DNA from: Alphaproteobacteria bacterium
Lineage (GTDB): Bacteria; Pseudomonadota; Alphaproteobacteria; ATCC43930; CGMCC-115725
NCBI GenBank assembly: GCA_030041385.1
Contig: JASHNY010000114.1
Span: 1 to 52,611, forward strand
Length of the DNA stretch: 52,611 bases
Direction of reading: 5' to 3'
Position numbers and translations under genes: made by a program. Positions 28,204-30,589 of the stretch are shown here, piece after piece (the stretch's first letter is position 1; every line of letters starts with the position of its first letter). The notes beneath the pieces were generated by a model. It was not told where the DNA came from and made no database searches. It worked only from the letters and a program-made list of their open reading frames with translations.

Positions 28204-28554
28204 ATGGAGGAGCCGTTGTCTCTGCGCCAGAAGTATTTGAAAACCGTGAGTCATCTGATGCCGGCCGGCGCGCTCGGGGTGTCGCTGGCATTGGGCGCGG
28301 CGGCTCCGGCGCTGGCAAGCCAAGACCCGGCCGACGCGCAGCCGCCGACGGTCGATCACGAGCGCGTTTCGGAGCGGCTTGCCGCCATCCGCGCCGCGGT
28401 GTCCGAGGTCGCCGGCGACCGCGAAGCGGCGGCCAAGGCCGAACAGCGTCTCGCCTGGGGCAATTTCCGCTGGGGCTGGGGCTGGCCGAACTGGCGCAAT
28501 TGGCCGAACTGGCACAATTGGCGGAACTGGGGAAACTGGTTCCACAACTGGTGA
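28204..28554 (+). CDS. exported Trp-Asn repeat RiPP precursor, GrrA/OscA-like
   Basis: A 116-residue peptide with three parts. First is a Sec-type signal (hydrophobic core about residues 20-36, AxA site, cleavage probably after Ala38). Second is a helical leader-like segment (about 45-80, ERVSERLAAIRAAVSEVAG). Third is a 32-residue core at 85-116 built almost entirely of W-x-N units: WGN, WPN, WRN, WPN, WHN, WRN, WGN, then WFHNW. The radical SAM/SPASM gene lies 21 bases downstream. Known Grr/Osc precursors combine the same leader segment with aromatic-x-Asn motifs that become three-residue cyclophanes; modification here is inferred. Start alternatives: ATG 28204, or TTG 28216, which has an ideal GGAGG at 28207-28211. 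Longer frames from 28093 add a non-signal-like N-terminus. Confidence 0.8.
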   Translation: MEEPLSLRQKYLKTVSHLMPAGALGVSLALGAAAPALASQDPADAQPPTVDHERVSERLAAIRAAVSEVAGDREAAAKAEQRLAWGNFRWGWGWPNWRNWPNWHNWRNWGNWFHNW

Positions 28555-28575
28555 AAACGGACCGGACGGCGCGCC

Positions 28576-29778
28576 ATGAACGGCCCGCAACAGCCGCAAA
28601 TTCAGCTTCTCGTCATCCAGCCGACCCCGTTCTGCAATATCGATTGCCGCTATTGCTATCTGCCGGACCGCTCCAACAAGGCGGTGATCGCGGAAGAAAC
28701 GCTGCGCAACCTGTTTGCGCAGGTCTTTGCCTCCGGCTGGGCCGCCGGCGAGCTCAGCATTGTCTGGCATGCCGGCGAGCCGATGGTATTGCCGATCGAG
28801 TTCTACCGCCGGGCATTTCGCCTGGTCGATGAGCTGAAACCCGCCGACCTGGCGGTCGGCCACTCGTTCCAGACCAACGGCACGTTGATCGATGACAAGT
28901 GGTGCCGGTTTTTCATCGAGCACCACGTCAATATCGGGGTCAGCATCGACGGGCCGAAGCGGCTGCACGACCGCAACCGGGTGACCCGCGCAGGCCGCGG
29001 CACGTTCGACAAGACGGTCGCCGGGCTGCGGCGGCTGCGCGACCATCGGGTGCCGTTTCACGTGATCTCGGTGCTGTCGTCGGAGAGCCTCGCGGTCCCG
29101 CGCGAGATGTTCGAGTTTTACATCGCGGAAGGCATCTCCGACGTCTGCTTCAACGTCGAGGAAACCGAGGGCAGCCACGTCTCGGAAACGTTCGCCGCGG
29201 CCGATATCGAGCAGGCGTATTACCGTTTTCTCAGCGAGTTCTGGCGCCTTTCGGCGGCGGCGCCGGGGAAGATCGCCTTCATCCGCGAAATCGACGATAC
29301 GACCCGCCAGGTGTTGCGGCCGCAGGAGGCGCGCTTCTTCAACCAATTGGTCGAGCCGTTTGCGGTGACGAGCATGGATTGGCGCGGCAACATCGCCACG
29401 TTCTCCCCCGAACTTCTCGGCTTGAGAAATTCCGATTACGGCGATTTCATCATCGGCAACATCAACCGCGACCGGCTCGTCGATATGGCCGGGCGGGCGG
29501 TGCTGGCCAAGATGCTGGCGGATATTCGCGCGGGGGTGGCGTTGTGCCGCGAGCGCTGCGGGTATTTCAGCGTGTGCGGCGGCGGCGAGCCGGTCAACAA
29601 GCTGTTCGAGAACGGCAGCTTCGCCACTTCCGAGACGACCTATTGCCGGATGACCAAGATGCGTGCGACCGACCTTGTGCTCGATCGGCTCGAGCGGATG
29701 CGCCAGGCGGAAGCCGAGCCTCGCGGCCTCGACGGCGTCGCCCGCTCGCCGGTCCCGATCCCATCGCCGACGGTTTAG
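28576..29778 (+). CDS. grrM: radical SAM/SPASM peptide maturase, GrrM/OscB-like
   Basis: A 400-residue radical SAM enzyme. Cys20, Cys24 and Cys27 form the CxxxCxxC motif (TPFCNIDCRYCYLPDR) that binds the SAM cleavage cluster. The TIM-barrel segment contains WHAGEPM and GVSIDGP. The C-terminal SPASM/twitch region has Cys324, Cys328, Cys334 and Cys357 (CRERCGYFSVC then TTYC) for auxiliary Fe-S clusters. QPTPFCNIDCRYCYLP closely matches what I recall of cyclophane-forming maturases of the GrrM/OscB family. The likely substrate is the Trp-Asn repeat peptide encoded immediately upstream. The last 25 residues are Pro/Arg-rich. The symbol is by resemblance, not by search. Confidence 0.85.
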   Translation: MNGPQQPQIQLLVIQPTPFCNIDCRYCYLPDRSNKAVIAEETLRNLFAQVFASGWAAGELSIVWHAGEPMVLPIEFYRRAFRLVDELKPADLAVGHSFQTNGTLIDDKWCRFFIEHHVNIGVSIDGPKRLHDRNRVTRAGRGTFDKTVAGLRRLRDHRVPFHVISVLSSESLAVPREMFEFYIAEGISDVCFNVEETEGSHVSETFAAADIEQAYYRFLSEFWRLSAAAPGKIAFIREIDDTTRQVLRPQEARFFNQLVEPFAVTSMDWRGNIATFSPELLGLRNSDYGDFIIGNINRDRLVDMAGRAVLAKMLADIRAGVALCRERCGYFSVCGGGEPVNKLFENGSFATSETTYCRMTKMRATDLVLDRLERMRQAEAEPRGLDGVARSPVPIPSPTV

Positions 29779-29833
29779 CAACCACGGCCGAATGCCGCTC
29801 CGGCGTGGCGGCATCCGATAGCGGGAGATGCGG

Positions 29834-30589
29834 ATGACAAAGATCGTTCCGAAGCTTTGCGCGCTGGCCGCGGCCGCTGCGCTGACGGTCGGGTCTGCCG
29901 GAATCGCGGGGGCGCAGAACGCACCGTCGTCGGCGCAGATGGCGGCGCCGCCCGCCGCGGCCAACCAGCCCGCGGGGTACCCCGAGGAGGAAGGCGAGAA
30001 CGCCGCCGAAAACAACGCCGCCGGCCCGGCCGGGGCGACCCGTCCGATCGAAGTGCCGGTGTTGTATGTGACCAGCATCGAGGTGTTGCGCGGTTCCGCC
30101 GAGCCCAAGATCGATATCGTGCGGGTTACCGGCCTGGCCAGCTCCGACGGGTGGAGCGCGCCCGAACTGGTGCCGTTCTTCTATGGCCGCCCGGCCGACG
30201 ACGTGCTCGATCTGCAATTCGTCGCCCAGAGCCCCGAGCAATCGCAGAAAGCCGACGGCTTCATGCCGGTCAGCGCGATATTTCCGCTCGATATCGGCCA
30301 TACGTTCAAGGGGGTGCGCGTCCGCGCCGCGGCCAACGCGCTCCAGCTGATGCAATTGCCGGGGGTCACCCAGACGACGATCAAGGCGTTGAGCGGCAAG
30401 GATCTGATCGGCAAGAAATTTGTCGAAAACGGCCCGGGCGGTCCGGGCGTGGTCACGGCCGCAGAATTGCCGCGCGGCTTTCGCACGATTGCGCCGACGC
30501 ATGGGGTGGGCGGGATCATCCACGATCCCAACCGGCTCGACCTGATCCTCGACGACTCGAACCGCATCGTCATGGCGTTCTGGGAGTAG
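29834..30589 (+). CDS. exported protein with I78-inhibitor-like C-terminal domain, third gene of the RiPP cassette
   Basis: A 251-residue protein with a clear Sec signal (Ala-rich core, cleavage likely after Ala27) and an Ala/Pro/Glu linker to about residue 70. The middle domain (about 75-180) contains PVLYVTSIEVLRG, VRVTGLASSDGWSAPELVPF and PVSAIFPLDIGHTFKGV; I do not recognise it. The C-terminal ~70 residues read LIGKKF...ELPRGFRTIAPTHG...PNRLDLILDDSNRIV. This follows the I78 peptidase-inhibitor pattern: a Gly-Lys start, an Arg-x-I-x-P strand, then an Asn/Asp-Arg-Leu strand and Asp-x-x-x-x-Ile. The terminal Cys-Gly of I78 is replaced by FWE. GGGAG at 29823-29827 selects ATG 29834 over 29828. 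It is 55 bases after the maturase, on the same strand. Confidence 0.6.
   Translation: MTKIVPKLCALAAAAALTVGSAGIAGAQNAPSSAQMAAPPAAANQPAGYPEEEGENAAENNAAGPAGATRPIEVPVLYVTSIEVLRGSAEPKIDIVRVTGLASSDGWSAPELVPFFYGRPADDVLDLQFVAQSPEQSQKADGFMPVSAIFPLDIGHTFKGVRVRAAANALQLMQLPGVTQTTIKALSGKDLIGKKFVENGPGGPGVVTAAELPRGFRTIAPTHGVGGIIHDPNRLDLILDDSNRIVMAFWE

Follow-up and report, generated by a model that had tools for sequence, protein, structure and literature searches.

The closest described counterparts of the locus analysed here are the GrrA-GrrM / OscA-OscB systems (TIGR04260 and TIGR04261). In other lineages, GrrM is also linked to GrrP (TIGR04262), an exported, extracellular substrate-binding orphan protein; we know of no settled function for the Grr peptides. 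The chemistry of OscB is described in a review (PMC11002830): C7 of Trp is bonded to the beta carbon of either Asn or Asp, and C4 of Phe to that of an Asn residue, in each case between residues i and i+2.

The present cassette lies in a window of 52,611 nucleotides (the whole stretch of DNA that was analysed) from an alphaproteobacterial contig. It resembles the Grr/Osc systems in its maturase, which scores above the TIGR04261 cut-off, and in the leader-bearing aromatic-x-Asn precursor directly upstream, but differs from them in the unspaced W-x-N array of that precursor, which is beyond the reach of the GrrA model, and in the addition of a linked third gene, with no GrrP above cut-off in the 16 genomes searched. 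The product of the third gene, hereafter the partner, shares linkage to GrrM and, by prediction, export with GrrP, but has no match to TIGR04262. In profile and, at modest Z, in predicted fold, its C-terminal domain is akin to the I78 inhibitors (PF11720; AFUEI) and to potato inhibitor I (CI-2, eglin c); unlike I78 proteins, however, the partner falls below the Pfam cut-off, lacks the terminal Cys-Gly, and carries an additional beta domain on its N-terminal side and, in most copies, a CxxC ahead of the I78-like domain. We consider it probable that the three genes form a cassette that yields an exported peptide with several cyclophanes, of the Grr/Osc (triceptide) kind, together with a dedicated extracytoplasmic partner, the cyclophanes, the export and the role of the partner all being predicted.

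The precursor-maturase pair

The open reading frames of the window place three consecutive genes on the plus strand, with the following features:

28204-28554, plus strand: putatively GrrA-like precursor gene, 116 aa; leader homologous to those of 12 further precursors, drawn from 11 loci
28204-28317, plus strand: residues 1-38, the first part of the leader, resembling a signal peptide and with ALA before S at its end; assigned by eye
28456-28551, plus strand: core with seven W-x-N (six contiguous) and one F-x-N, by motif count
28576-29778, plus strand: gene of the GrrM/OscB radical SAM/SPASM maturase, 400 aa; TIGR04261 at 408.3 bits (cut-off 310) and PF04055
28633-28656, plus strand: CxxxCxxC motif of the maturase (C20, C24, C27), invariant across nine aligned maturases
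29828-30589, plus strand: partner gene, predicted exported two-domain protein, 253 aa, start possibly at 29834; conserved directly 3' of GrrM; AlphaFold2 model
30053-30361, plus strand: N-terminal beta domain of the partner, residues 76-178; AlphaFold2 model, weak NigD-like match
30386-30586, plus strand: C-terminal I78-like domain of the partner, residues 187-253; fold matches, weak PF11720 matches, hhalign

Only 21 bases separate the precursor stop from the maturase ATG; this spacing and the coordinates bear out the original prediction of three genes at this place. Promoter and terminator scans yielded nothing exceeding shuffles. The maturase matches TIGR04261 over the entire model (positions 1-363 of 363), and this is the sole cut-off that it passes among the best 25 of 65 matching NCBIfam models, the next model, AmcB, scoring 311.7 against a cut-off of 425. 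In addition to the CxxxCxxC cysteines, C324, C328 and C334 are invariant in the nine aligned maturases (window included). The genome contains one GrrM match; in a search with defence-family models, viperin models matched the maturase weakly and the partner not at all. By its profile score, the maturase is a member of the cyclophane-forming GrrM/OscB family, as had been predicted, and the refuting case named with that prediction, a maturase outside the cyclophane-forming clade, does not apply.

In the precursor, a positively charged start is followed by a hydrophobic stretch leading to ALA-S; the middle part contains VSERLAAIRAAVSEV, and the tail of 32 residues reads WGNFRWGWGWPNWRNWPNWHNWRNWGNWFHNW. 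Judged from the sequence alone, its start is signal-peptide-like; the ATG at 28204 is backed by two relatives, the precursors of which begin with MKEETLSLR at the corresponding place. W-x-N triplets are located at residues 85, 94, 97, 100, 103, 106 and 109, and an F-x-N at 113. Up to seven consecutive W-N had been predicted; the actual unbroken run is six, with the seventh W-x-N standing apart and the F-x-N in addition. When the tail was shuffled 200,000 times, a run of six never arose, and seven W-x-N in total arose 117 times; the window has 652 stop-to-stop frames with a length of 40 aa or more, and the precursor is the only one of them that contains more than four W/F-x-N. The codons of the array vary (AAT or AAC for Asn, CGC or CGG for Arg) and, therefore, it is not a fresh DNA repeat. 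The comparison with GrrA/OscA that had been proposed for the precursor gave a divided outcome: the window copy has no match to the GrrA/OscA1 model TIGR04260 at an E-value of 1, but 3 of the 13 aligned precursors, the window copy not among them, do match (best E-value 1e-9). With its leader and its aromatic-x-Asn repeats directly upstream of GrrM, the window precursor can nevertheless be classed as GrrA-like.

Because the maturase belongs to the GrrM/OscB family, cyclophane formation is predicted. The maturase would act on the precursor in the cytoplasm and, in some or in all of the eight aromatic-x-Asn triplets, six of which are back to back, would bond the aromatic ring (Trp or Phe) to the beta carbon of the Asn at i+2; the leader may double as a Sec signal. 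Back-to-back links would stiffen the tail, and the product might be a rigid, rod-like peptide. The number of rings, the export of the peptide and the task of the partner are what we infer from these features. The maturase might instead modify one or a few triplets, leaving a mainly unlinked Trp-rich tail, for example, a membrane- or surface-binding segment. We regard this as unlikely: the link count cannot be read from the sequence, and the variable middle residues and the widely differing repeat number among relatives would be compatible with few links, but Asn at i+2 is retained in arrays with Trp or with Phe, spaced or unspaced, the pattern to be expected were every triplet a substrate. The unspaced array would also offer a test of whether one radical SAM enzyme closes neighbouring strained rings in series; if it does, rigid peptide rods useful in design would result.

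Distribution of the three genes

A search of the 99 nearest genomes, the own genome counted among them, showed GrrM of at least 66% identity in the own genome and ten others. One of these copies (G006) is split into two frames and another (G029) is a contig-end fragment; the break in the former (L060 / L044), near residues 218-237, is a frameshift or a sequencing error. A more distant copy, at 46% identity, is found in G020, with a poorer core (FSN, WPN, FRN). A homologous W-x-N precursor is located directly upstream of GrrM in all 11 close loci (window included, G020 excluded), and the alignment of the close-relative precursors reveals conserved leader positions. In G025, G035 and G029, there is a second precursor with W-R-N repeats further upstream, such that one maturase may serve two core designs; these second precursors (L054, L057, L061) end about 500-550 bases upstream of GrrM.

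The second lineage is the alphaproteobacterial family f67, genus g77 (labels of the genome collection used), in which 28 of the 30 examined loci have a W-G/H/R-N precursor, mostly GG-spaced. Of the two loci without an intact precursor, one (G319) retains only a leader stub and the other (G439) has none that is recognisable. The stub in G319 (L065) continues in frame into the maturase; the core missing there and in G439 (L134) points to deletion or to assembly collapse of repeats. Two further lineages contribute a mixed core (G227) and an F-P-N core (G322). At the G322 locus (L101, 4897-5181), the F-x-N repeats of the GrrM precursor stand in tandem, and there is no third gene. The original prediction had put at stake whether homologues of the maturase ever pair with W-x-N precursors; aromatic-x-Asn precursors accompany them at all of the close loci and at 30 of 32 further GrrM loci.

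The third gene may start at either of two ATGs, and the one at 29834 is no less likely than that at 29828 because GGGAG lies a few bases before it; the start of the protein appears signal-like, again going by sequence only. No Pfam or NCBIfam model matched the window partner beyond chance. Strong partner matches (E-value 1e-59 or better) occur in ten of the same 99 genomes, among them the own genome, and all ten also hold GrrM, in nine cases on the same contig and in G035 at the ends of two contigs; in addition, G036 has a broken partner fragment and no GrrM match, and the match in G077 is weak (E-value 6e-4). Across 385 genomes of the class, the partner was detected in 3, all with GrrM above cut-off, and GrrM above cut-off in 5. 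Within family f67, 40 of the 75 genomes have both genes, 4 have GrrM only, none has the partner only, and 31 have neither (Fisher p 5e-17, relatedness ignored). GrrM is above cut-off in 37 of the 40 partner-bearing genomes and fragmentary in 3; in three of the GrrM-only genomes (G439, G447, G450), the first codons of the partner are present and the contig then ends, and in the fourth (G452), the contig ends inside the maturase. The gap between the ends of the GrrM and partner matches is 96-177 bases in 34 of the 40 genomes, and the partner occurs in tandem copies in, for example, G396, G485, G435 and G432.

Outside both lineages, no partner was found near GrrM in the fetched stretches of G020, G227, G322 and the Phaeobacter, Nostoc and Streptomyces plasmids (three of the six plasmid records). 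A search of 299 genomes of the phylum added three weak partner matches (G604, G195, G694). These (L159, L160, L161) are short proteins that resemble the N-terminal part of the partner only; two are lipoprotein-like by eye, and there was no Pfam match at an E-value of 1. In a tree of 45 GrrMs, which has several long outside branches and an arbitrary root, the 39 sequences from the two lineages are set apart from six outsiders (94/75; 96% of bootstrap trees), which suggests, with moderate support, a single origin of the partner-GrrM pairing.

Several identities of the third gene were considered and rejected. TIGR04262 was absent among the NCBIfam matches at an E-value of 1 for the window copy and for 46 partners, and had no match in the own genome at an E-value of 0.001, so that the gene is not GrrP; a substrate-binding protein is rejected because the binding-protein-like match in G077 shares little past the signal-like start (by eye). 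The original prediction of a distinct partner outside the described Grr clusters holds up, the gene being conserved with GrrM, assignable to no named family and distinct from GrrP. The accompanying suggestion that the exact cassette may be undescribed survives in part: the precursor-maturase pair is of an already known kind, and what appears to be new is the linked two-domain partner with its I78-like domain, of which no description was found among the open-licence papers searched, nor was a comparable three-gene cassette in their titles or abstract starts.

Structure and possible role of the partner

An AlphaFold2 model of the partner built from 46 sequences (pLDDT 75.5) is all-beta and mostly confident from about residue 75, the first 73 residues scoring below 50; an earlier model from ten sequences was poor (pLDDT 53). 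The C-terminal part matches AFUEI, an I78 elastase inhibitor, with Z 6.5 and rmsd 2.4 over 62 aligned of 68 residues, and CI-2 and eglin chains at about Z 5-6, and the N-terminal part shows weak matches to NigD-like proteins (4pqx, Z 6.1, rmsd 2.8, 92 aligned; 3qwn, Z 4.8, rmsd 2.9, 92 aligned), all these Z values being under 8, where, by the tool's own note, a mere common arrangement may be involved. The fold search tested mainly the C-terminal part, so that a known fold of the N-terminal domain may have gone unnoticed. The best Foldseek E-value for the model was 0.17, and a viral fold library gave nothing at an E-value of 0.001.

Weak matches to PF11720 were obtained for 19 of the 46 partners (best E-value 5e-4; three other families were matched once each) and for 14 of 25 partner C-terminal domains, the window partner having none; in ten partners scanned singly, the cut-off of 23.6 bits was not reached (best 18.9, five without a match). 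An I78 alignment, made from 13 proteins of other genomes found by the Pfam model, has AFUEI as its first PDB match (E-value 8e-14), and hhalign joined it to the alignment of the partner C-terminal domains with a probability of 96.5% and a score of 49.7 over 41 columns, compared with at most 15.8 for 100 column shuffles and 10.6 for the reversed alignment. Common to both families is R-x-I-x-P, followed by P-N-R-L, an acidic turn and an Ile near the end. The last two residues are WE or WD in all 46 partners, and Cys-Gly in 11 of the 15 fetched I78 frames. A CxxC precedes the C-terminal domain in 44 of the 46 partners; the window copy and L150 lack both cysteines, and such joint loss would be expected of a disulphide.

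The last 65 residues of the partner thus look like a diverged I78 protease-inhibitor domain of the potato-inhibitor-I fold. That the resemblance is due to chance, the domain being another small beta fold such as that of RNase P component 1, seems improbable. By sequence, no solved relative emerged from the first whole-length alignment, and the top PDB match of the C-terminal profile is indeed RNase P component 1 (E-value 2.7e-4 over 66 positions), with neither AFUEI nor CI-2 found, and PF11720 stays below cut-off; yet the hhalign score far exceeds those of the shuffles, 45 or so of the best 50 rows of the fold list are potato-inhibitor-I chains or NigD-like proteins and none is RNase P, and the partner appears to be exported, whereas RNase P is cytoplasmic.

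With the I78-like reading retained, the third gene would give rise to an exported two-domain protein, the C-terminal domain of which descends from, or closely mimics, I78 protease inhibitors. Its most likely task would be to protect the exported peptide or to time its proteolysis, either through inhibition of a protease or through use of the same loop surface to hold the peptide. A less probable, although serious, alternative is that the partner serves the modified peptide as its specific receptor, chaperone or immunity protein, with the inhibitor-like fold as a mere scaffold and no protease inhibited. The exclusive linkage to GrrM and the tandem partner copies suit a peptide-specific binder, the C-terminus is unlike those of the fetched I78 proteins, and one of the weak NigD-like matches of the N-terminal part (4pqx and 3qwn among them) is titled an immunity protein; but the Z values of these matches are in the range that the tool calls middling, and toxicity or binding of the peptide has no support here. 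Tentatively, the protective reading can be carried further, to an undescribed class of Grr cassettes in which up to eight indole/phenyl-Asn cyclophanes, most of them back to back, would form an exported ladder, held and protected extracytoplasmically by its own protease-inhibitor-fold protein. As no strong form of the partner was encountered without the maturase, the partner offers a handle on the purpose of Grr peptides, through what it binds or inhibits.

Genomic surroundings

Upstream of the cassette are two genes, one for a glyoxalase-fold protein and one for a methyladenine glycosylase, which adjoin it also in 7 of the 10 remaining close loci (L055, one of the three exceptions, starts too near the maturase to show them); downstream, on the other strand, is an ABC ATPase gene. 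No peptidase or obvious peptide exporter was found among the four window neighbours scanned, which would fit Sec export. In G396, some 1.6 kb separate the second partner copy from an M23 peptidase gene (L099, 987-2459) that lies beyond it. GrrM is also encoded on six plasmid records, at 39-41% identity. Four of these are Phaeobacter plasmids typed as conjugative (for example, L162, Phaeobacter piscinae pP18_a), and on Streptomyces sp. pADI95-16a (L164), the plasmid GrrM adjoins lantibiotic-type genes.
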